Part shown: in pieces, positions 1 to 12,054 of the stretch
Layout: every line of letters begins with the position of its first letter
How positions within the stretch are numbered: the first letter of the stretch is position 1
Assembly (NCBI GenBank): GCA_016210785.1
Contig: JACQTN010000179.1
Location: 1-12,054 of the forward strand
Origin: Armatimonadota bacterium
GTDB taxonomy: Bacteria; Sysuimicrobiota; Sysuimicrobiia; Sysuimicrobiales; JACQTN01
Reading direction: 5' to 3'
Length of the DNA: 12,054 bases
The notes under the pieces: model-generated
Told to the model about the DNA's origin: nothing
Seen by the model: the letters and a program-made list of their open reading frames with translations, nothing else
Database searches by the model: none
Translations under genes and position numbers: made by a program

Positions 1-519
1 GTACACGGCACCCCCCGCGCACGGCCCCATGATCGCCGAGATCTGCGGGATCACGCCCGAGGCCAGCACGTTGCGCAGGAAGATGTCGGCGGAGCCGCCC
101 GGGCTCTCCACACCCTCCTGGATGCGCGCGCCTCCCGAGTCGTTGAGGCCGATGACGGGCGCGCCGGTGGAGGTGGCCAGGTCCATGATCTTGCAGATCT
201 TGGCAGCGTGCCCCTCGCCCAGCGAGCCGCCCAGCACGGTGAAGTCCTGGGAGAAGATGAAGACGGGACGGCCGTCGATGGCGCCGTGCCCGGTCACCAC
301 GCCGTCGGCCGGCGCCTCCACGCGATCCATGCCGAACTCGCGGGCGCGGTGGGTGACGAACATGTCCAGCTCGACAAACGTGCCGGGGTCGAGGAGGACA
401 TCAAGGCGCTCCCGCGCGGTGAGCTTGCCGCCCTGGTGCTGGCGGCGCACGCGCTCTTCGCCGCCCATCTGCCGGACGCGGTCGCGGCGCCGGCGCAGGT
501 CCTCGATGTGGCCCGGCAT
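1..519 (-). CDS. Acyl-CoA carboxyltransferase (propionyl/methylmalonyl-CoA type), 5' part only
   Basis: This is the N-terminal 173 residues of a biotin-dependent carboxyltransferase beta subunit (PccB/MmdA family). Such enzymes move a carboxyl group between carboxybiotin and propionyl-, acetyl- or methylmalonyl-CoA in the cytosol. Visible family features are the [19 protein letters not shown] segment near residue 35, the [20 protein letters not shown] segment near 93-112, [12 protein letters not shown] near 134-145, and [10 protein letters not shown] at the window edge, which supplies the acyl-CoA/oxyanion glycines. Families of this type run to about 510-530 residues, so about two thirds of the gene lies beyond the left edge. 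The ATG at 519 was chosen because it sits one base after the stop of the upstream gene (TGA-g-ATG), which suggests coupled translation, and because [12 protein letters not shown] is a typical start for the family. A GGGGAG lies about 13 bases upstream. The acyl-CoA substrate cannot be told from this fragment. Confidence 0.93.
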
Positions 520-520
520 C

Positions 521-844
521 TCAGGCGAACCGCTCCCCGCCGCCAGTCCGGCGGTCGGCGTGAGCGGGCACCGGGGAGAGGGGACGGATGGAGATGATAC
601 CGTGCTTGAAGATCAGCTCCTCGCGGCCCTCCGCCTCCACCAGCAGGCTGTAAGTGCCGAAGGCGCGGATCACGGCCTGGGGGATCTCGTAGCCGTCCAC
701 GCACAGGATGCGCACCGGGGCGCCCCCGTCCACCAGCCCCTGGTAGAACTGGTCCTCCATGACCTGCCGCCGGTCGGTGCCCTGGCGCCGTTCCACGTGT
801 CCGGCCACGCCGGTGGGGCGTTCGTGCATCTCGCGCGTGTTCAC
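521..844 (-). CDS. Possible internal-start short form: stand-alone Hfq-like protein
   Basis: Within the fused gene, a GTG at 844 (codon 350) is preceded at six bases by GGGGAGGT, a stronger Shine-Dalgarno than that of the full gene. Initiation here would give a 107-residue protein holding the complete Hfq-like domain near residues 28-89, close to the size of ordinary Hfq (about 75-100 residues). The start also has the GTGA form used at other gene junctions in the window, where the TGA would end an upstream gene in another frame. Either the fused gene makes two products, or two genes were fused by a frameshift in the low-complexity linker. In-frame translation through the site is clean, so the full-length protein remains the default. 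Confidence 0.35.
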
Positions 845-1891
845 AGGCGCACCTCCCCGCGGTTCCGGCCGAATCTCTGAGATATCCTTGAGCACGTCGG
901 ACGCGGCGGCGGCCGCGGATCGCTGCACGTCGAACGGCTGAGACTCGCGCGAGGGCCCGGAGGTCCGCGCCCGGGCCGTCGCGGCGCTGGTGGATACGGC
1001 ACCGGAGGAAGGGGGACCCGGCCGGGCGGCGGGCGCCACCGGCTCCGGCGACGCTGCCGGACCCGACGACGAGGCACGCGGGAACGGGCGAAGCGAAGGT
1101 GCCGGGGACGGCGGAGCGGAGGGCGGCGGCGGCGCCGGATCTCCCGCCGCCGGCGCGGGTAAGCGGCCGGCCGCCGTCAGGTAGGACCGCCGCATGGCCT
1201 CCAGGCGGCCCCGCCGATCCTGGGCGGGCCACGGTGCCCGGGGGCGCACCGCGCCTGGGACGTCGCGCTTCGCCGCGGCGTCCAGCGTCGCCATCACCAC
1301 CGCCTCGCCTTCGCCAGCATCGACAAACGTCGCGCCGACCTGCTGCTCATCGCCGCCGGACGCGGGAAAGGACACGGCCACCACCGCCACTTGCCGCTGC
1401 GCAAAGGGGAGAATCGCCACCGCCTCCAGCAGGGGACGGCGCACGCCCGGGTCGAGCATCGGCCGCATGGCGTCCAGCGCCGCCAGCGCCACCGTGCGCA
1501 GCCGCGCCGCCGGGCCGGGCGTTCCCTGCGCCGTGCCGCGCGTGACCCGCGTCTCGGCGTCGGTCTCCCAGCGGATCTCCACCACCACCTGGGTGCCCGA
1601 CTCGCCGATACGCTCCTGCAGGCTGTGCAGCCGTGGAGCGGACCGCACGCGCAGCGAGTCCGTTTCGCGCAGGGGGGCGACGTGGATGCGCGCGCCGTCC
1701 AGGAGCAGGTTGAACTGGCTGAGCAGCGCGGAGGTGACGGCGCGGCGGATCTCTTTGGGGTCGCCGTGGGCTTCCGCGGTGAGGTGGATGCGCTCGATTT
1801 GCCCGGTCTCGGAGGCGATGACGCGGGAGGAGACGACGCCCGACAACCGCTCGAGGAGGGCCTCGATCTCCTCTGCAAAAACCTCGGGCAT
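521..1891 (-). CDS. Two-domain protein: carboxylase-neighbour domain, Pro/Ala linker, C-terminal Hfq/Sm-like domain
   Basis: The 456-residue product has three parts. Residues 1-75 ([20 protein letters not shown], then [16 protein letters not shown] and an IHVAPL strand) resemble an unnamed domain I recall from proteins encoded next to acyl-CoA carboxylase genes. Residues 100-210 form a second alpha/beta segment. Residues 245-350 are a disordered Pro/Ala/Ser linker. Residues 377-438 align with bacterial Hfq: MEDQF matches its first helix, [20 protein letters not shown] matches Sm1, and [13 protein letters not shown] matches Sm2 (YKHAIST in E. coli). The K56/H57 equivalents K429/H430 are kept. 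Q8 is E379, K31 is E402, and the rim arginines are absent. RNA binding or hexamer formation is inference. The start is uncertain: ATG 1891 follows a purine-rich GGAGG stretch, with GTG 1936 and TTG 1948 as in-frame alternatives. Confidence 0.8.
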
Positions 1892-1967
1892 TTCCTCCGC
1901 CGCCCTCCGTGAAGTTCCTGGCTCCTCTTTCGTCACGCCGGGGCGCAATCCCTGTGCCCAAGAACAC

Positions 1968-4587
<2,620 letters not shown>

Positions 4588-4607
4588 GCCTACCTCCCAC
4601 GGACAGC

Positions 4608-4616
4608 AGTATAGCA
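4608..4616 (-). promoter_or_regulatory. Extended -10 promoter element for the ligA unit
   Basis: On the minus strand the bases TGC-TATACT give an extended -10 (TGn-TATAAT, one mismatch in the hexamer) in an otherwise very GC-rich gap. No good TTGACA lies 16-18 bases upstream, which is acceptable for an extended -10 site. Transcription would start near 4601, about 14 bases before the leader ORF and 88 before ligA. It is the only A/T-rich hexamer of this kind in the gap after the M29 peptidase gene. Confidence 0.5.
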
Positions 4617-4618
4617 CA

Positions 4619-4628
4619 CGTCCGGACG
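4619..4628. promoter_or_regulatory. Perfect 10-bp palindrome in the promoter spacer
   Basis: CGTCCGGACG is self-complementary and lies two bases upstream of the TGC of the extended -10 element, between the expected -10 and -35 positions. That is a place where a repressor dimer would block RNA polymerase. Ten-base palindromes also occur by chance in GC-rich DNA, so an operator role is only a possibility. Confidence 0.25.
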
Positions 4629-4662
4629 CACCCGTTCCTCCAGAGAACGCTGCGTCTTCCGT

Positions 4663-5775
4663 TCAGATGACCCAGCGCCCGTCGCGGTGGATGACCTGCC
4701 CGTCGGCGCGTACCTCGCCGCCCTGCCGCAGGTCGCAGATCATGTCCCAGTGGATGGCCGACCGGTTCTTCCCCCCGGTCTCCGGATAGCTCGACCCCAG
4801 GGCCAGGTGGACGGTGCCGCCGATCTTCTCGTCGAAGAGGATGATCTTGCTGAAGCGCGTGATGGCCTCGTTGTTCCCGAAGGCAAACTCGCCCACGTAG
4901 CGGGCCCCGGCGTCGGTGCCCAGCATCGCCTCCAGGAACTCCCGGCCGTGCGCCGCCTCGGCGTTCACCACCCGCCCCTTCTCGAAGGTCAGCCGGACGT
5001 CGGTGACCTCGCGCCCCCTGTACAGCGCCGGGAAGGTGAAGCGGATGTGTCCCTCCACCGAGTCCTCCACGGGCCCCGTGAAGACCTCGCCGCTGGGGAA
5101 GTTGCGCCGGCCGTCGGAGTTGAACCACCGGCGCCCCGCCACGCCCATCCGCAGGTCCGTGTCCGGCGCCCTCACCTCCAGCGCGCGCACACCCTCCAGG
5201 AATTCGCATTGCGCCCGCTGCCGGGCGCTCAGCGTCTCCCACGCCGCCAGCGGGTCCACCTGGTCCAGAAACTCCGCCCGGGCCACGAACTCCTCGAACT
5301 CCCCGAGCGACATTTCGGCCTCCTGGGCGTCGGCGTGGGTGGGATGACGGGTCAGGCACCATCGCAGCTCGCCGCGGCCTGACCGGCCGAAGAAGATCTC
5401 CCGCAGCGGGCCGTGCGCCCGGAAGTACCCGACCTGCCGCGACGGATCCACCCCCGTGAGCGCCTTGGGGTTGAGGGGAGCCACGATGCGCAGGCTGGCG
5501 TCCATCCGCTCCACCTCCGCCCGGTCCAGGTCCGAGACGAAGGTGAGCTGTTCATCGGAGGCGTGCTTGTAGAAGATCTCCTCGAGCTCTTCCAGGCCGA
5601 TCTTCAGGCGGACGTGGGCGCCGGCCCGCAGCGCCTCGCGGTAAACCTGGCGCACCAGCGGTCCCGCGGCCGGGGTGGACTCCAGCACCAGCAGGTCGCC
5701 GGGGCGCAGGCGGAGGGAGTAGCCGGCCAGCAGCGCGGCCTTCTTCGCAATCCACGAATCATTCATGCCCAGCAT
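4663..5775 (-). CDS. M29-family aminopeptidase (AmpS/AmpT type)
   Basis: A 370-residue metallo-aminopeptidase of family M29, cytosolic two-metal enzymes that remove N-terminal residues from peptides. The length is slightly shorter than the usual ~400. The metal-binding C-terminal half is well kept: FPSGEVFTGPVEDSVEGHIRF-like block starting near 226 (likely ligand E230), GEFAFGNNEAITRF near 295-308 (E296), DEKIGGTVHLALGSSYPE near 315-332 (E316, H323), and HWDMICDLR at 342-350 (H342, D344). The start at ATG 5775 overlaps the sulfur-carrier gene by 17 bases; ATG 5766 (MNDSWIAKKAALL) is an equally good start with an 8-base overlap. It is the last gene of the amino-acid block. Substrate is unknown, and a role in cleaving the carrier's C-terminal tail would be unusual, because M29 enzymes act on N-termini. 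Confidence 0.93.
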   Translation of the reverse strand: MLGMNDSWIAKKAALLAGYSLRLRPGDLLVLESTPAAGPLVRQVYREALRAGAHVRLKIGLEELEEIFYKHASDEQLTFVSDLDRAEVERMDASLRIVAPLNPKALTGVDPSRQVGYFRAHGPLREIFFGRSGRGELRWCLTRHPTHADAQEAEMSLGEFEEFVARAEFLDQVDPLAAWETLSARQRAQCEFLEGVRALEVRAPDTDLRMGVAGRRWFNSDGRRNFPSGEVFTGPVEDSVEGHIRFTFPALYRGREVTDVRLTFEKGRVVNAEAAHGREFLEAMLGTDAGARYVGEFAFGNNEAITRFSKIILFDEKIGGTVHLALGSSYPETGGKNRSAIHWDMICDLRQGGEVRADGQVIHRDGRWVI

Positions 5776-6166
5776 TCATGCGCAGGACCGGCGAGCCGGG
5801 TCCGAGCATCCCCAGCATGATGGACGCCGCAGAATCAGGGGAGGGGGAGGTATCGGAAGGGGGAGGGAAAGCGCCCTCCCCCTCCGAGAAAATCCCGCCG
5901 GCCAGAGCGGGGATGATGGACACCTCGGCGCCCTCGGGCACCGGGGTCTGCAGCCCGGCCAGCGTGCGGATATCCTGCTCGTTGACGAAGATGTTGACAA
6001 ACCGCAGCACCTGGCCGTCGCTGTCCAGCACCCGCTCCCTCACCCCCGGGTGTTTGCGCTCCAGGTTCTCGATCACGTCGCGGAGCGTCGCCCCGTCCAC
6101 CTCGACGATCTTGTTGCCGCCCGTGAGCCGCCGCAGCGGCATGGGAATGCGCACCTTAACCGGCAT
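5759..6166 (-). CDS. ThiS/MoaD-family sulfur-carrier-like protein with a C-terminal tail after the diglycine
   Basis: The first 91 of 135 residues form a beta-grasp ubiquitin-like fold: MPVKVRIPMPLRRLTGG, a TLRDVIENLERKHPGVRERV helix, LRFVNIFVNEQDIR, then PVPEGAEVSIIPALAGG. Relatives normally end at this GG, which is adenylated and thiocarboxylated so that the protein can donate sulfur. Here 44 more residues follow (92-135), rich in Pro, Ser and Gly with no recognisable domain. The diglycine must therefore be exposed by proteolysis, or the protein is inactive as a carrier, or an older stop codon has been lost. The ATG at 6166 has GGGAGGG seven bases upstream and gives the normal family start; an in-frame extension to GTG 6238 lacks a good site. 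The gene follows the zinc-ribbon threonine synthase by 75 bases and overlaps the aminopeptidase gene. Confidence 0.88.
   Translation of the reverse strand: MPVKVRIPMPLRRLTGGNKIVEVDGATLRDVIENLERKHPGVRERVLDSDGQVLRFVNIFVNEQDIRTLAGLQTPVPEGAEVSIIPALAGGIFSEGEGAFPPPSDTSPSPDSAASIMLGMLGPGSPVLRMNAGHE
5853..5887. repeat. Strong G/C palindrome in the tail of the sulfur-carrier gene
   Basis: Perfect 10-bp arms AGGGGGAGGG and CCCTCCCCCT enclose a six-base loop; a further TCGG/CCGA pairing extends the stem to 14 bp with one bulged base. It begins at codon 94, three codons after the diglycine. No T-run follows it on the minus strand, so it is not a standard intrinsic terminator. Its poly-purine style resembles the dispersed palindrome at 8814-8836, so it may be an inserted repeat. 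Confidence 0.7.
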
Positions 6167-6241: not shown

Positions 6242-7483
6242 TCAACTCACGGCCACGCGTCCCAACACCTTCTCCTCGAACGCCCGCACCGTGGCGGGAA
6301 TGCGGACCGGCGCCTTCAACACGCCGTCCACCGCCTCAGGCGTCTTCAGCCCCATGCCGGTGATGTACGCCACCACGGTCTCGTCGGGACGGAAGGCGCC
6401 TGCCTCTGCCAGCCGGCGCAGCACACCGGTGGTCACACCGCCCGCGGTCTCCGTAAACAGCCCCTCCGTCTCCGCCAGCAGGCGGATGCTCTCCACGACC
6501 TCCTCGTCGGTCACGGTCTCCACCACGCCGCCCGTGCTGCGCACCGTCTGCAGGGCGTAGATGCCGTCGGCCGGGTTGCCGATCGCCAGCGACTTGACGA
6601 TGGTGTCGGGCCGCACTGGCTTCACGTCGTCCGCGCCGCGGCGGAAGGCGTCGGCCACCGGCGCGCATCCCGCGGGCTGGGCGCCGTGCACGCGCGTGAC
6701 CGGTCCGCCGTCCAGGAGCCCCACGCGCCGGAGCTCGTCCAGCCCCTTGTCGATCTTCACGAGCAGGTTGCCCGACGCGATGGGCACGATGACGTGGTCG
6801 GGCGCCCGCCAGCCGAGCTGCTCCACCACCTCGAAGGCCAGCGTCTTGGCGCCCTCCGAGTAGTAGGGACGCAGATTCACGTTGACGAACGCCCACCGGA
6901 ACTCGTCGGCCAGTTCGGTGCACAGGCGGTTGACGTCGTCGTAGGTACCGTCCACCTCCACCACGGTCGGCCCGTACACCGCCGTGCTGAGAATCTTGGC
7001 CCGCTCCAGCCCCCGCGGGATAAAGATGTAGGCGGGGATGCTGGCCTTGGCGGCGTGCGCGGCCAGAGAGTTGGCCAGGTTCCCGGTGGAAGGACACGCC
7101 GCCGCCTCGAAATCGAACTGGCGGGCCATGGTCACCGCCACCGACACCGCCCGGTCCTTGAAGGAGTGGGTGGGGTTCGCGGCGTCGTTCTTCAGGTAGA
7201 GGTTGCGCAGCCCGAGCCGGCGTCCCAGGTTCTCCGCCCGGACCAGGGGCGTGAAGCCCGCGCCCATGTCCACCGGCGGCGCATCTCCCACGGGAAGCAG
7301 CTCGCGATAGCGCCACAGCGTGGAGGGGCGTCGGGCGATCTCGCTGGCGCCCAGGGTCTGCCGAAGCTTGTCGTAGTCGTAGTGCACCTCCAGCGGGCCG
7401 AAGCACTCCTCGCACACGTAGTGCGGCCCCAGCGGGTACTCCGTCCCGCACTCCCGGCACACCAGCTTCTGGGCAAACGCCAT
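6242..7483 (-). CDS. thrC: Threonine synthase 2 (zinc-ribbon type, PLP fold type II)
   Basis: A 413-residue PLP enzyme of the threonine synthase family, which converts O-phosphohomoserine to threonine. The N-terminus carries a four-cysteine ribbon (VCRECG and YVCEECF; C9, C12, C24, C27), common in threonine synthases of thermophiles and archaea. PLP-binding K109 lies in THSFKDRAVS, PSTGNLANS follows near 131-139, IVPIASGN binds the phosphate, and the substrate loop IGNPADG is intact, unlike in the second copy at 9773-10876. ATG 7483 was chosen over GTG 7492 because AAGGGGGTGA (7489-7498) sits five bases upstream, nearly the ideal ribosome-binding site. It follows lysC and precedes a sulfur-carrier-like gene. 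Since fold type II relatives such as CysM accept sulfur from a carrier protein, a role in homocysteine or cysteine synthesis is an alternative. Confidence 0.9.
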   Translation of the reverse strand: MAFAQKLVCRECGTEYPLGPHYVCEECFGPLEVHYDYDKLRQTLGASEIARRPSTLWRYRELLPVGDAPPVDMGAGFTPLVRAENLGRRLGLRNLYLKNDAANPTHSFKDRAVSVAVTMARQFDFEAAACPSTGNLANSLAAHAAKASIPAYIFIPRGLERAKILSTAVYGPTVVEVDGTYDDVNRLCTELADEFRWAFVNVNLRPYYSEGAKTLAFEVVEQLGWRAPDHVIVPIASGNLLVKIDKGLDELRRVGLLDGGPVTRVHGAQPAGCAPVADAFRRGADDVKPVRPDTIVKSLAIGNPADGIYALQTVRSTGGVVETVTDEEVVESIRLLAETEGLFTETAGGVTTGVLRRLAEAGAFRPDETVVAYITGMGLKTPEAVDGVLKAPVRIPATVRAFEEKVLGRVAVS

Positions 7484-7488
7484 TTCCG

Positions 7489-7498
7489 TCACCCCCTT
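7489..7498 (-). promoter_or_regulatory. Ribosome-binding site of thrC2
   Basis: AAGGGGGTGA differs by one base from the ideal AAGGAGGTGA and ends five bases before ATG 7483. It decides that start over the upstream GTG 7492, which lies inside the site. Confidence 0.75.
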
Positions 7499-7508
7499 TG
7501 ACCCCCTC

Positions 7509-7574
7509 GAAACATCCCCAGAGCCCCTCGAAGCACCGCGGCGGATGTTTCCAGCGGGTCACTCCGCGCGGTGC
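7509..7574 (-). ncRNA. Candidate H-type pseudoknot between lysC and thrC2
   Basis: Two perfect inverted repeats are interleaved. Arms GCACCGCG/CGCGGTGC (7567-7574 with 7533-7540) form an 8-bp stem, nine if the last A of the lysC stop codon pairs too. Arms GAAACATCC/GGATGTTTC (7543-7551 with 7509-7517) form a 9-bp stem. In RNA order the linkers are 15, 2 and 15 bases, a geometry that lets both stems form at once as a pseudoknot. The element starts right after the lysC stop and ends 25 bases before the thrC2 start, so it could control thrC2 translation or message stability. It matches no riboswitch class that I recognise, and folding has not been computed. Confidence 0.45.
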
Positions 7575-8057
7575 TCACAGGCGATCCAGGTTGAAGGCCC
7601 GGTGGACGGCGCGCACGCAGCGCTCGACCTCCGCGGCGTCGATGATGCAGGAGACCTTGATCTCCGACGTGCTGATCAACTGGATGTTCACGCCCTCCTC
7701 GGCGATGGCCCCGAACAGCTTGGCGGCCACGCCGGGATTGCTCACCATGCCCGCGCCGACGATGGAGATCTTGGCCACGCCGTTCTCCCAGTGCACGCCG
7801 CGCGCGCCGATCTCCCGCGAGACCTCCTCCGTCACCTTCGCCGCGGTCTCGCCGTCGGCGCTGGAGACGGTGAAGGAGATGTCCGCCTTCCCGTCGCGGC
7901 TGGCGCTCTGGATGATCATGTCCACGTTGATGTGCCTGGCCGCCAGCGCGCTGAACAGGCGGTGGGCCACGCCCGGCACGTCGGGCAGGCCGGCGATGGT
8001 GATCTTGGTCACGTCCCTGTCATGGGTCACCGCCGTCACCACGCGCGACTTCTCCAT
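7575..8057 (-). CDS. lysC: Aspartokinase beta subunit from an internal in-frame start
   Basis: An ATG at codon 246 of lysC is preceded by GGAGGAG with a six-base spacer, a very strong ribosome-binding site inside a coding region. It would produce a 160-residue protein made only of the two ACT domains. Bacillus subtilis aspartokinase II and the corynebacterial enzyme are known to make such a regulatory beta subunit from an in-frame start at a similar place, forming alpha2-beta2 complexes. The site is seen directly; its use here is inferred. Confidence 0.75.
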   Translation of the reverse strand: MEKSRVVTAVTHDRDVTKITIAGLPDVPGVAHRLFSALAARHINVDMIIQSASRDGKADISFTVSSADGETAAKVTEEVSREIGARGVHWENGVAKISIVGAGMVSNPGVAAKLFGAIAEEGVNIQLISTSEIKVSCIIDAAEVERCVRAVHRAFNLDRL

Positions 8058-8792
8058 GGCACGCTCCTCCACGATTCTGGTCCCCTCGGCTTCGGAGAAG
8101 GTGGAGCGGATGTGGAGCGGGACGTTATACTGCTTGGCGTACTCCGCGGCCCGCGTCTGCAGCACCACGGCCCCGCTCGAGGCCATCTCCAAGATCTCGT
8201 CGAAGGAGAGGACGTCCAGCTTGCGCACCCCCGGCGCGATCCGGGGATCGGCCGTGAAGACGCCTTCCACGTCGGTGTAGATCTCGCAGACGTCGGCCCC
8301 CAGGGCGGAGGCCAGCGCCACCGCGGTCACGTCTGAGCCGCCGCGTCCCAGCGTGGTGATCTCGTCCTCCGCGGTAATCCCCTGGAACCCCGCCACGATC
8401 ACGATGTTGCCCCGGCTCAGCTCCCGGTCCAGGCGCCGGCGGTCCACCTCCAGGATGCGCGCTTTGGTGTGCACCTTGTCGGTGAGGATGCGCACCTGCG
8501 CGCCGGTGAGGGAGATGGCCGCGTGGTCCAGCTTGTGTATCGCCATGGCCAGCAGGGCGATGGAGACCTGCTCGCCGGTGGCCAGCAGCATGTCCATCTC
8601 CCGCGCGGGCGGCCGCTCGTTTACCTGGCGCGCCAGATCGATGAGGTGATCGGTGGTGCCGCCGGGCGCGGAGACCACCACCGCCACCTTGTGGCCCGCC
8701 TGCTTGGTGGCCACGACCCGCCGGGCCACGTGCTTCACGCGCTCCGGCGTGGCCACCGACGTGCCTCCGTATTTTTGAACGATGAGTCCCAT
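7575..8792 (-). CDS. lysC: Aspartokinase (alpha subunit, with two ACT domains)
   Basis: A 405-residue aspartokinase that phosphorylates aspartate, the first step towards lysine, threonine and methionine. The kinase domain (1 to about 245) shows VQKYGGTSV at 5-13, VVVSAPGGTTD, GFQGITAEDEITTLGRGGSD near 144-163, and the YTDVEGVFTADPR nucleotide-binding segment. Two ACT domains follow (about 260-335 and 340-405), with the SRDGKADISFTV and GAGMVSNPGVAAKLF effector-site segments that normally bind lysine or threonine for feedback control. ATG 8792 has GGGAG five bases upstream. The size and internal start match the Bacillus-type lysine-sensitive enzyme. It is separated from thrB by a 60-base gap holding a palindromic repeat. 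Confidence 0.97.
   Translation of the reverse strand: MGLIVQKYGGTSVATPERVKHVARRVVATKQAGHKVAVVVSAPGGTTDHLIDLARQVNERPPAREMDMLLATGEQVSIALLAMAIHKLDHAAISLTGAQVRILTDKVHTKARILEVDRRRLDRELSRGNIVIVAGFQGITAEDEITTLGRGGSDVTAVALASALGADVCEIYTDVEGVFTADPRIAPGVRKLDVLSFDEILEMASSGAVVLQTRAAEYAKQYNVPLHIRSTFSEAEGTRIVEERAMEKSRVVTAVTHDRDVTKITIAGLPDVPGVAHRLFSALAARHINVDMIIQSASRDGKADISFTVSSADGETAAKVTEEVSREIGARGVHWENGVAKISIVGAGMVSNPGVAAKLFGAIAEEGVNIQLISTSEIKVSCIIDAAEVERCVRAVHRAFNLDRL
8064..8070 (-). promoter_or_regulatory. Internal ribosome-binding site for the aspartokinase beta subunit
   Basis: GGAGGAG lies six bases before the ATG at 8057, inside lysC. It overlaps codons for the kinase/ACT junction and is stronger than the site of the full gene. 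Confidence 0.7.
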
Positions 8793-8813
8793 GTGGTCTC
8801 CCGTGACCTGTTC

Positions 8814-8836
8814 CCCTCTCCCCCAGGGGGAGAGGG
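8814..8836. repeat. Dispersed-type palindrome between thrB and lysC
   Basis: Perfect 11-bp arms CCCTCTCCCCC and GGGGGAGAGGG surround a single A, followed by TAGGGTGAGGGG. This CCCTCACCCTA-plus-hairpin pattern is familiar as an intergenic repeat scattered through many GC-rich bacterial genomes. As RNA it forms a stable hairpin directly after the thrB stop, which could attenuate read-through or protect the upstream message. No T-run follows. Confidence 0.75.
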
Positions 8837-8852
8837 TAGGGTGAGGGGTGCC

Positions 8853-9776
8853 TCACACGCGAACCGGATTGTCCTCCTTCACCACCCGCGCGCCCTCCGG
8901 GTCGATCTCCGTCACCACGATCTGGCACGCCACGCCCGCACCGGCGAGGGCGCGTTGCATCGCCTCGCCGCACGCGCCGTCGGGGGCAAAGGCCGCCACC
9001 GTCGGCCCCGACCCGCTCAGCATGACGCCATAGGCGCCGGCGCCCCGCGCCGCGTCCATCACCGCCTCCAGCCACGGCACCAGCGGCCGGCGGTAGGGCT
9101 GGTGCAGCCGGTCCTGGGTGGCCGCGCCCAGCAGGTCGGGCCGGTCGCCGGTCAGCGCCGCCACCAGCAGCGCCGCCCGCCCCACGTTGAACACCGCGTC
9201 CGGAAACGGCACTGTCTGCGGCAGCAGCCGCCGCGCCTCCGCGGTCGAGACCTCCACCTCCGGGATTGCGAGCACGAGCCGCCACGTCCCGCGCACGTCC
9301 ACCTTCGCCCACCGCACGCGGCCGCCGTCCAGGGTGCAGGCCACCAGCCCGCCAACCAGAGCCGGGGTCACGTTATCGGGATGCCCCTCCAGGCCGCACG
9401 CCAGATCCAGCAGCGCGCCCAGCGGCAGCGGGTCGCCGAGCAGCGCGTTGGCGGCCACGGTGCCGCCGGCGATGGCCGCGGCGCTGCTTCCGAGCCCCCG
9501 GCGCAGCGGGATGGCGTTGCGCTGCGTCACCCGCAGCGGGCCCAGCGCACGCCCCGCCTTCTGGGCCACCTCCTCCGCCGTCCGCAGGACCAGGTTGCGG
9601 CCGTCGCGGGGCAGCCGGTCCGCGCCCGCGCCCGTGACGGTCACCTCCGTCCTCTCCGCCCGCTCCACCGTCAGCACGTTGTAGAAACGTACCGCCAGTC
9701 CCAGCGCGTCGAACCCGGGCCCCAGGTTGGCGATGGTCGCCGGCACTTTCACTGTCACGCGCCGGAGCGCGCTCAC
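8853..9776 (-). CDS. thrB: Homoserine kinase
   Basis: A 307-residue GHMP kinase that makes O-phosphohomoserine, the substrate of threonine synthase. Motif 1 is at 11-23 (VPATIANLGPGFD), the ATP-binding glycine loop is PLRRGLGSSAAA at 90-101, and the C-terminal GHMP motif is GVMLSGSGPTVAAF. The length is typical. The GTG start at 9776 overlaps the thrC1 stop as GTGA, so the two are probably translationally coupled. The C-terminus ends just before the palindromic repeat. Function is clear from sequence and from the hom-thrC-thrB order. Confidence 0.97.
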   Translation of the reverse strand: MSALRRVTVKVPATIANLGPGFDALGLAVRFYNVLTVERAERTEVTVTGAGADRLPRDGRNLVLRTAEEVAQKAGRALGPLRVTQRNAIPLRRGLGSSAAAIAGGTVAANALLGDPLPLGALLDLACGLEGHPDNVTPALVGGLVACTLDGGRVRWAKVDVRGTWRLVLAIPEVEVSTAEARRLLPQTVPFPDAVFNVGRAALLVAALTGDRPDLLGAATQDRLHQPYRRPLVPWLEAVMDAARGAGAYGVMLSGSGPTVAAFAPDGACGEAMQRALAGAGVACQIVVTEIDPEGARVVKEDNPVRV

Positions 9777-10876
9777 CGTCCGATGACCCCCTCGATCACC
9801 CGCGCCACCGACTCGAAGGACGCGCGCACCGGCGGCGGGATCCGCACACGCCCCAGCGCCGTGTCCACGTCCTTGAGCCCGTGACCTGTGACGATGGCGA
9901 CCGCCACCTCGCCGTCCGGCAGCGTCCCTTCCGCCGCGCGGCGCAGCAGCCCCGCCACGCCTGTCGCGGAGGCGGGCTCCACGAAGATCCCTTCCTCCCG
10001 CGCCAGCAGGGCCTGCGTCTCCAGGATCTCCTCGTCGGTCACCTTGGTGAACTCACCGGGGCTCGCCTGCCCCGCCCCCCCCGCCGGCTTCCTGGCGGCG
10101 GGTTTGCCGCCGCGGATCGCCGATGCCACCGTCTGCGGCACCCCGATCCGCCGACCCTCCACCAGCGGGGCCGCGCCCGCCGCCTGCACGCCCAGCAGCG
10201 TCGGCAGCGCCGCGATGCGCCCGCGCTCGTGGTACGCCGCCAGGCCGCGCCACAGCGCCGTGATGTTCCCCGCGTTGCCCACGGGCAGCGCGATCAGGTC
10301 CGGCACCCGGCCCAGGGCGTCGCAGATCTCGAAGGCGACCGTCTTCTGCCCCTCCAGCCGGTGCGGGTTGAGCGAGTTCACCAGCGTCAGCGACATCTGC
10401 TCCGTGACGGTGCGCGCCAGCTCCATGGCGTCGTCGAAGGTACCCCGCACGGAGACCGCCTCCGCCCCGTGCACCAGCGCCTGGGCCATTTTGCCCATCG
10501 CGACCCCGCCCGCCGGCACGATGACGAAGCAGGGCAGGCCGGCGCGCGCCGAGTACGCCGCCGCGGAGGCCGCGGTGTTGCCGGTGGAAGCGCAGACGAC
10601 GGCGCGGCTCCGCGCCTCCAGCGCCTTGGAGATCGCCACCGTCATCCCCCGGTCCTTGAAGGACCCGGTGGGATTCGCGCCTTCCACTTTGATGAGGAGC
10701 CGCCGGCCGATGCGCGCGCTCAGCACCCGGCTCTCCACCAGAGGGGTGTTCCCCTCGAGGAGGGTCACCACCGGCGTCTCGCGGGTGACGGGGAGGAACT
10801 CGCGGAACTCCTCGATCACCCCGCGCCAGGTCCCGGGACTCACGCCGACCACGCCCCGCCGGCCACCGGGACTCAC
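9773..10876 (-). CDS. thrC: Threonine synthase 1
   Basis: A 367-residue PLP enzyme of the shorter threonine synthase type with no zinc ribbon. PLP lysine K74 lies in GSFKDRGMT, with CASTGNTAASAAAY at 95-108, LEGQKTVAFE at 174-183 and LPVGNAGNIT at 197-206. A conserved loop is altered: the usual AIRIGNPxSW reads AIRGGKPAAR (253-262), followed by a Gly/Ala/Pro-rich run, while flanking motifs and spacing are normal and in frame. The GTG at 10876 was chosen because it overlaps the hom stop as GTGA with GAGGT nine bases upstream; GTG 10843 is an alternative created by a 33-bp tandem duplication. It lies between hom and thrB, the classical threonine operon order. Confidence 0.93.
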   Translation of the reverse strand: MSPGGRRGVVGVSPGTWRGVIEEFREFLPVTRETPVVTLLEGNTPLVESRVLSARIGRRLLIKVEGANPTGSFKDRGMTVAISKALEARSRAVVCASTGNTAASAAAYSARAGLPCFVIVPAGGVAMGKMAQALVHGAEAVSVRGTFDDAMELARTVTEQMSLTLVNSLNPHRLEGQKTVAFEICDALGRVPDLIALPVGNAGNITALWRGLAAYHERGRIAALPTLLGVQAAGAAPLVEGRRIGVPQTVASAIRGGKPAARKPAGGAGQASPGEFTKVTDEEILETQALLAREEGIFVEPASATGVAGLLRRAAEGTLPDGEVAVAIVTGHGLKDVDTALGRVRIPPPVRASFESVARVIEGVIGR

Positions 10877-10879
10877 GCC
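10833..10879 (-). repeat. 14-bp direct repeats 33 bp apart at the hom/thrC junction
   Basis: GGCGTGAGTCCCGG occurs at 10866-10879, where it contains the hom stop and the thrC GTG, and again at 10833-10846. The offset of 33 bases keeps the frame, giving two similar 11-residue segments at the thrC N-terminus (VSPGGRRGVVG and VSPGTWRGVIE). This looks like a tandem duplication that copied the GTGA start. Confidence 0.8.
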
Positions 10880-12054
10880 TCGTCGACCTCGACGCGGATC
10901 ACGCTGCTGACCTCCTTGAGCACGGCCAGCTCGCGGAGCCTCGGCAGCACCCGCCGCATCCTGGCCTCCTGGGTACGGTGGGTGACCAGCACGATGTCGG
11001 CCACCTCCCCGCGGCTCTTCTGCACGATGGAGGCGATGCTCACGCCCTCCTCGCCGAAGACCGCGGCGATGCGGGCGAAGACGCCCGGCTGATCCGCCGC
11101 CTGGAGGCCCAGGTAGAAGCACGCTTCTGACAGATCGGGATCGCGGATGGGGGTGCTGCGGTAACACGTGCAGCCGAGGCGGCCCGCCGCGCCCAGCCGG
11201 CGGTTGCGGCCGACGTCCACTAGGTCGGCGATGATGGCGCTGGCAGTGGGGCCGCCGCCCGCGCCCCGCCCGTAGAACATCACCTCGCCCACGGCGTCTC
11301 CGCGCACCAGCACGGCGTTGTACTCATCGGTCACCGCGGCGAGGGGATGGGACGTGGGGATCATCGCGGGATGGACCCGGACCTCCACCTGCCCATCCAC
11401 CTGGCGGCCGATGGCCAGCAGCTTGATGACGTAGCCCAGCTCGCGCGCGTACTCGACGTCGCGGGGAGAGATCCGGCTGATGCCCTCGCGGGGCACGTCG
11501 CTGGCCGTGACGCGGGTGTTGAAGCACACCGAGGCCAGGATGGCCAGCTTGGCCGCCGCGTCGTGCCCTTCCACGTCGTCGGTGGGGTCCTGCTCGGCGA
11601 AACCGCGCGCCTGCGCCTCGCTCAGCGCCTCGCTGAACGTCCACCCCTCGCGGGTCATGCGGGTCAGGATGTAGTTGGTCGTCCCGTTCAGGATGCCGGT
11701 CACCTCAACGATGCGGTTGGCGGCCAGTCCTTCCTTGATCGGACGGATCAGCGGGATGCCGCCGCCCACGCTGGCCTCAAAACACAGGTCCACACCCGCC
11801 GCCTCCGCCGCGTCCAACAGCTCGCGCCCGCGGTTGGCCATCAACTGCTTGTTGGCGGTCACCACGCTCTTGCGCTGCTCCAGGGCGCGCAGCACGTAGG
11901 AGCGCGCCGGCTCGATCCCACCCATGACCTCCACCACCACGTCGATGCGCGGGTCGGTGACCACCTCCCACGCGTCGCCGGTCAGCAGGGCACGGTCCAC
12001 GGGCACGGCGCGCGGCTTGTCGGGATGGGCCACGGCGACGCGGCGCACCTGGAA
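10873..12054 (-). CDS. hom: Homoserine dehydrogenase, N-terminus beyond the window
   Basis: This enzyme reduces aspartate semialdehyde to homoserine with NAD(P)H, the branch point towards threonine and methionine. The visible 393 residues begin inside the nucleotide-binding domain; the GxGxxG end of about 35-45 residues lies off the right edge. Seen are VVEVMGGIEPAR, SVVTANKQLMA, FEASVGGGIPLIRPI, GILNGTTNYILTRM, the catalytic segment DPTDDVEGHDAAAKLAIL with D165 and K169 of the visible fragment, and PREGI. A C-terminal ACT domain from about 312 (FYLGLQAADQPGVFARIAAV) suggests threonine feedback. The stop is shared with the thrC1 start (GTGA). The promoter of the amino-acid unit is outside the window. 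Confidence 0.97.
   Translation of the reverse strand, partial: FQVRRVAVAHPDKPRAVPVDRALLTGDAWEVVTDPRIDVVVEVMGGIEPARSYVLRALEQRKSVVTANKQLMANRGRELLDAAEAAGVDLCFEASVGGGIPLIRPIKEGLAANRIVEVTGILNGTTNYILTRMTREGWTFSEALSEAQARGFAEQDPTDDVEGHDAAAKLAILASVCFNTRVTASDVPREGISRISPRDVEYARELGYVIKLLAIGRQVDGQVEVRVHPAMIPTSHPLAAVTDEYNAVLVRGDAVGEVMFYGRGAGGGPTASAIIADLVDVGRNRRLGAAGRLGCTCYRSTPIRDPDLSEACFYLGLQAADQPGVFARIAAVFGEEGVSIASIVQKSRGEVADIVLVTHRTQEARMRRVLPRLRELAVLKEVSSVIRVEVDEA

Follow-up and report, generated by a model that had tools for sequence, protein, structure and literature searches.

An Hfq domain at the end of a long protein

Why does an Hfq domain, ordinarily a small protein of its own, form the C-terminal end of a 456-residue protein encoded beside acyl-CoA genes? 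The question is raised by the gene at 521..1891 (minus strand, ATG at 1891) of the window, by which we mean the whole stretch of DNA analysed here, a single contig of 12,054 nucleotides (JACQTN010000179.1) from a 72% complete Armatimonadota genome of the order Sysuimicrobiales. The answer that we favour, at a rough probability of 0.47, is that its product is a divergent, chromosomally encoded Hfq, which probably acts as an RNA regulator under the influence of branched-chain amino acids or their catabolites; this reading draws on sequence comparisons and structure models.

The protein consists of N1 (residues 1-73; 1673..1891, minus strand), with the helix-strand-strand-helix-strand order of a common, ferredoxin-like fold; N2 (residues 85-212; 1256..1639, minus strand), which resembles the regulatory domain of LeuA and CimA; a Pro/Ala/Glu-rich linker modelled at low confidence (residues 213-372; 776..1255, minus strand), much of it with a predicted local distance difference test score below 50; and the Sm/Hfq domain (residues 373-441; 569..775, minus strand). 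The linker spans about 100 residues and is rich in Pro and Ala, as an earlier reading of the sequence (the initial annotation) had described it; its composition is 18% Pro and 16% Ala over those relatives (27 of 44) whose linker ends could both be placed by a script. Not one of the 98 columns at residues 233-330 is conserved at 90% or above, and a short segment within this otherwise unconserved linker, D..xIRPExxGG (residues 331-350; 842..901, minus strand; 7 of 20 columns at 90% or above), is a possible docking peptide.

Several lines of evidence identify the C-terminal domain. Residues 380-441 match the Pfam Hfq model (28.4 bits, where the cut-off is 27; E 1.3e-6), and a profile of relatives, into whose alignment 41 of the 44 proteins returned by a protein search (the window's included) were taken, matches a solved Hfq structure at E 4.1e-8. 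The predicted monomer model of the fusion shows with high confidence an Sm fold with an N-terminal helix and five strands, at a root-mean-square deviation of ∼1.1 Å from Caulobacter Hfq (6gwk). Because this fold is Sm and because all 41 scanned sequences, that of the window among them, match Pfam Hfq (E ≤ 1; best 1.5e-8), the match is not due to chance. The window protein did fall short of the NCBIfam Hfq equivalog cut-offs (26.3 against 61.7 bits and 27.4 against 95 bits).

The positions compared below are those of E. coli Hfq, whose roles are described in part in the excerpt of PMC5379935. In the window protein E379 corresponds to Q8, E402 to K31, F411 to F39, G412 to D40 and K429/H430 to K56/H57; one residue is inserted at 404 relative to classic Hfq, and the RRER arginine patch of the rim is absent. 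The initial annotation had proposed the Sm/Hfq domain, the possible survival of its fold and these very residue assignments, including the missing patch, and all of them hold in the model and alignment. Across the 44 fusions the pattern is nearly uniform: (i) Q8 is replaced by Glu in 43, K31 by Glu in 43, D40 by Gly in 43, Q41 by Thr in 44 and Q52 by Glu in 44, so that both proximal-site glutamines, Q8 and Q41, are lost; (ii) at strand positions Y25 has become Arg in 42, L26 Cys in 44, V27 Arg in 43 and I30 Tyr in 43; (iii) D9 is still Asp in 43, F42 is Tyr in 44 and Y55 is Phe in 43; and (iv) the Lys-His pair of the Sm2 motif (K56, H57) is kept in all 44. The window protein itself departs from its relatives at three positions of one strand (R394, L396 and V398). 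Canonical Hfq residues were taken for this comparison from the 7 of 11 loci (L033-L043) that matched the search pattern. Given this near-uniformity, and since no other region of the protein is as well conserved as the Sm domain, it appears to have been re-specified rather than to have decayed.

The N-terminal part and its relatives without Hfq

The N1-N2 family has no Pfam model. Predicted models of N2 show the βββ-α-βββ-α fold of the LeuA/CimA regulatory domain, which binds leucine or isoleucine. Profile comparisons with LeuA domains gave a mixed picture, with a probability of 86.9 (E 4.2e-6) for a wide N2 profile and of 0.35% for one of the fusions alone. An N2 domain also forms the C-terminus of a CBS-GGDEF protein (L076:4081-5361), and the window genome's own CBS-GGDEF-N2 protein (L077:49-1377, contig C336) looks alike by eye.

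The initial annotation had called the N-terminal part a carboxylase-neighbour domain usually seen without Hfq. The second half of that description is right, the first is not: the part consists of two domains, and it is not tied to carboxylases, because its Hfq-free relatives sit beside HPF, SecA and RF2 genes or beside a branched-chain-oxoacid oxidoreductase. Within the order, a stand-alone N1-N2 gene adjoins HPF in 8 of 10 loci (L062-L071) and lies near SecA in 9. Further afield, 132 of the 151 genomes around that of a more distant locus, L002 (described below), match the fusion profile, nearly all matches listed being N-terminal parts. Among 20 loci taken from the top of this list (L174-L193), the N gene stands beside a Glu/Leu/Phe/Val-type dehydrogenase, Vor genes or both in 11 (Vor genes in 10 of these); in the other nine it adjoins HPF, in most cases together with SecA and RF2. 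This common family thus keeps to two settings, one among genes for branched-chain-oxoacid oxidoreductase and one among those of ribosome hibernation (HPF-SecA-RF2). At 15 other loci outside the order (the N gene was recovered in 15 of 18; neighbours were labelled by eye, seven of them in five loci being checked against Pfam), eight lie near HPF, RsfS/ArgS, ArgS or RRF/EF-Ts and seven have no such neighbour visible; N-family genes beside HPF, RsfS/ArgS or RRF/EF-Ts in other groups include L118:27-704, L105:4562-5326 and L117:4230-4735.

Genes around the fusion

The fusion itself is found in an acyl-CoA setting, as first proposed. One nucleotide after its stop codon begins a carboxyltransferase gene of the propionyl-CoA carboxylase beta type, of which the window has the 5′ part (1..519, minus strand), the contig end cutting off the rest; the corresponding gap, measured at 16 of 21 loci, ranges from -8 to 149 nucleotides. 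With downstream gene families verified on a full-length relative locus (L093), a carboxyltransferase gene was found in 19, a biotin carboxylase gene in 17 and a methylmalonyl-CoA mutase gene in all of 20 fusion loci. The mutase gene lies downstream on the same strand, 1.3-6.2 kb away, in 29 of the 33 genomes that carry the fusion; the contigs of the remaining four stop within 1.6 kb. At L088, L089 and L091, where no carboxylase genes were detected, the fusion stays with the mutase.

Just upstream in the window lies a gene for a GerMN-type (Germane) protein (1968..2489, minus strand; Pfam PF10646, E 3.5e-21). Of the 20 loci, 19 carry GerMN, 15 LigA, 14 a homoserine kinase or threonine synthase gene and 12 MoaD. 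Ahead of the cluster, at 6242-12054 of the window, we recognized by eye genes for homoserine dehydrogenase and kinase, aspartate kinase and two threonine synthase-like proteins; such threonine-pathway genes are partly conserved in relatives.

A putative metabolite-responsive RNA regulator

Genes for propionyl-CoA and methylmalonyl-CoA conversion finish the breakdown of valine and isoleucine. The N family stands at both ends of one chain, from Val/Ile through the branched-chain oxoacid and propionyl-CoA to methylmalonyl-CoA. A metabolite-gated RNA regulator is our leading explanation because the fold is of a Leu/Ile-binding type, the unfused relatives lie by oxoacid genes and the fusion lies by propionyl-CoA/methylmalonyl-CoA genes; the combination of an Hfq end, a sensor-like front and a propionate-use setting suggests, but does not show, such a function. 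In the mechanism that we envisage, the Sm domain would carry a long flexible N-terminal arm with the ferredoxin-like and LeuA/CimA-type domains, and the Sm parts would form a ring. Its proximal face would still bind RNA through the retained Lys, His and aromatic residues, whereas its distal face would have been re-specified. N2 would sense a branched-chain amino acid or breakdown product, and sensing would alter the control that the ring exerts over its own operon, by way of translation or of stability. A bolder version, which we regard as decidedly tentative, has an allosteric Sm ring with a built-in sensor of branched-chain amino acids or acyl metabolites. Such a ring would replace ordinary Hfq in most of the order and make RNA control depend on the catabolism of branched-chain compounds and on propionyl-CoA flux, while a sister sensor protein would serve ribosome hibernation.

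Several observations weigh against a metabolite-responsive RNA regulator. RNA binding may have been lost, given the replacements at Q8, Q41, K31 and Q52 and the absence of the rim arginines. N2 lacks the synthase attached to the regulatory domain in LeuA and citramalate synthase, and it is only 10-13% identical to the regulatory structures 1sr9, 3fig and 3f6h; a profile of fusion N2 domains alone does not match LeuA (0.35%), the window protein has no Pfam LeuA_dimer match, and 3 of 21 relatives match that model weakly (best E 6.5e-4). No Sm domain occurs in any of the 20 stretches with Vor or HPF context, so the N family works mostly without Hfq. The N-part tree is compatible with a split of fusion and Vor-type proteins from HPF-type ones at weak support (84/53), some proteins having been labelled HPF-type without sight of their own gene context. 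One genome of family f4 has the operon without the fusion: its cluster (G003, L150:4266-4393) runs LigA-GerMN-carboxyltransferase, with 127 nucleotides and no gene between the last two. Finally, the promoter-like element described below was defined on fusion leaders, and its copy in the window is weak.

The main rival, which we consider unlikely, holds that the Sm ring does not bind RNA, and instead assembles the N-terminal part and binds a protein (the carboxylase or the mutase, for instance), in the manner of cyanobacterial Hfq with PilB. Replacement of Q8, Q41, K31, Q52 and the rim patch in nearly all 44 proteins would fit this, as would the operon association with its single-nucleotide gap to the window carboxyltransferase gene. 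There is also a precedent: the excerpt of PMC8092324 describes PilB, the ATPase of the pilus, and EbsA as partners of cyanobacterial Hfq, for which a role as RNA chaperone had not been shown; that protein (3hfo) shares the Hfq fold but stands alone and has different partners. Protein binding alone does not readily account for the invariant Lys-His pair and aromatic residue at F42, or for the persistence of the fusion where no carboxyltransferase was detected (L091).

Less probable again is that the N-terminal part is a ribosome or translation module without ligand sensing, to which the Hfq domain tethers certain mRNAs. The HPF neighbours of its relatives, in 8 of 10 loci of the order and 9 of 20 others, speak for it, as do the RsfS, ArgS or RRF/EF-Ts genes beside some relatives outside; yet N2 is folded like regulatory domains that bind small molecules and is found behind CBS-GGDEF modules too, 11 of the 20 relatives belong to a branched-chain-oxoacid cluster, and 7 of the 15 outside loci show no translation neighbour by eye.

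Hfq copies in the fusion genomes

Whether the genome holds another hfq was a point raised by the initial annotation. In the window genome the fusion protein is the only Pfam Hfq match, and among the 33 fusion genomes one, G023, has an extra match, a canonical Hfq encoded on a contig of 4.7 kb (L081, G023:C156) between genes for Der and an HflX-like GTPase, possibly a contaminant. The fusion profile also revealed small Sm-only open reading frames (ORFs) of the fused type in addition to the fusion in four genomes (G014, G022, G026 and G031), at L079:3678-3899 (minus strand), G014:C1:11311-11586, G022:C67:5627-5794 and G026:C38:64277-64441. In the remaining 28 of 33 genomes neither Pfam Hfq nor the fusion profile found another Hfq-like gene, and completeness is at least 92% in 23 of the 33. 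A very divergent second copy may still escape detection, because in G014, G022, G026 and G036 the Pfam model failed to pick up the fused domain itself.

This scarcity of other Hfq-like genes would be expected if the fusion were the clade's general Hfq, a global chaperone of small RNAs and mRNAs whose N-terminal arm and position are incidental. We nonetheless think this improbable, more so than a translation module: the rim patch, which speeds annealing according to the part of PMC5379935 that describes roles of E. coli Hfq positions, is missing, and the fusion is linked to one metabolic cluster. Moreover, miaA and hflX, the usual hfq neighbours in the excerpt of PMC11607428, are not among the labelled fusion neighbours, no search having been aimed at these two genes.

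Conservation of the fusion and its unfused form

Both halves are present in 33 of 43 genomes of the order, in one of which (G042) N1 lies in a different frame from N2 and Sm. One further genome (G041) has a fragment, one (G035) a stand-alone N-terminal part alone, and eight have neither part (seven of family f4 and one of f3), the f4 genomes giving no match to Hfq or the N-terminal part. Outside the order, 37 of 343 genomes match one part or the other, and no ORF listed has both, with at most four candidates scored per genome. In trees of the N-terminal part all sampled fusions group together in a single clade (19 of 19 with support 100/99; 12 of 12 with support 100/100), for which a single origin is the simplest reading, the tree roots not being fixed. 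Since 33 of 43 genomes carry both parts and the fusions form one clade, the fusion is not a sequencing error. An artefact of chimeric assembly or frameshift, which the window's origin from one 12 kb contig of an incomplete genome and the separate genes of L002 might recall, is therefore as good as dismissed and already refuted for the order, where 34 of the 43 other homologues align as one uninterrupted stretch over at least 95% of the query at 35-41% identity (the remaining nine over 24-65%).

The initial annotation had supposed that relatives with two separate genes would betray such an error. This fails within the order, where relatives carry the same two-part architecture in one ORF; the separate genes do exist at L002, a single, more distant locus found in a contig search (record named Bacillota bacterium). 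Here N1-N2 (4576-5319) and the linker with the Sm domain (5270-5995) are encoded by two ORFs in different frames that overlap by 50 nucleotides. The product of the second corresponds to P0165, a public protein that bears the name RNA chaperone Hfq (Pfam Hfq, 28.3 bits), of which we found one further relative, P0166 (237 residues, 48% identical); in both, as in the fusion, the Hfq domain follows a long disordered-looking stretch. Because P0166 shares the length and make-up of the L002 product, the pair reads as an unfused form and not as an error, an assembly frameshift being possible for L002 alone. The pair differs from the fusion in its gene setting as well, with VorB in place of the mutase: it is preceded by genes for a 2-oxoacid:ferredoxin oxidoreductase and for a Glu/Leu/Phe/Val-type dehydrogenase. 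The alpha subunit of the oxidoreductase scores above the NCBIfam cut-off for VorB (3-methyl-2-oxobutanoate; 557.5 against 399 bits). Unlike most fusion genomes, that of L002 has an additional small Hfq (an 87-residue ORF) elsewhere, along with a second N-terminal part. All in all, the initial interpretation is partly supported.

Relation to known Hfq proteins

With classic Hfq from Caulobacter (6gwk), Listeria (4nl2), Thermotoga (4y91) and E. coli, the fusion shares the Sm fold, K56/H57 and an aromatic residue at 42. Classic Hfq is small and stands alone, whereas the fused domain ends a protein of 365-480 residues and differs by the insertion at 404, by Q8E, K31E, D40G, Q41T and Q52E, and by the lack of RRER. 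Natural N-terminal domains ahead of an Hfq-like domain are on record: the excerpt of PMC3543421 describes zinc-finger-Hfq fusions of archaeal plasmids, with a C2H2 finger and no LeuA-like domain reported there, in place of the chromosomal N1-N2 arm. FlgV/BB0268, for which the excerpt of PMC11607428 reports no Sm fold, warns against labelling proteins as divergent Hfq; the Sm fold of the fusion, by contrast, is predicted with high confidence. We found no report of an Hfq domain fused to an N1-N2-type part in the open-licence PMC literature, and the term 'hfq' is absent from the main text of PMC11604079, where Sysuimicrobiota (CSP1-3) is a phylum of one class and one order; names of homologues suggest that the order compared here is this one. 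We regard the fusion as a new form of Hfq, natural Hfq fusions as such being already known. An Hfq ring whose subunits each bear a domain of ligand-binding type would represent a novel mode of gating; the system offers a defined protein with well-predicted domains, a likely target operon and, in another genome, an unfused two-gene form for comparison, and the residue changes across the 44 relatives test which faces of Hfq can be re-specified.

A promoter-like element upstream of the fusion

The leaders of the fusion genes, whose starts were found in 24 of 32 loci tried, contain a recurrent element, GCAGGR-N17/18-GAA, which may be a promoter for an alternative sigma factor. In 12 of 20 loci an exact copy precedes the start of the fusion by 7-74 nucleotides; the copy in the window, at 1929..1955 on the minus strand, is weak (7.5 of 9 positions). 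At a threshold of at least 8 of 9 positions, 14 of 20 fusion leaders carry the element against 15 of 233 unlabelled genes, an enrichment that is circular because the element was defined by reading fusion leaders. That 4 of 8 HPF genes reach the same score (p 0.0016; one exact) is a small independent hint that fusion and HPF genes may share a regulon. Matches occur at 14 per 100 kb of intergenic sequence, compared with 0.9 in coding sequence and 2-4 for other spacings, and 12 of the 21 intergenic matches are fusion leaders. Copies were seen upstream of the fusion (L084-L100), of HPF (L064) and of the CBS-GGDEF-N2 gene (L076).
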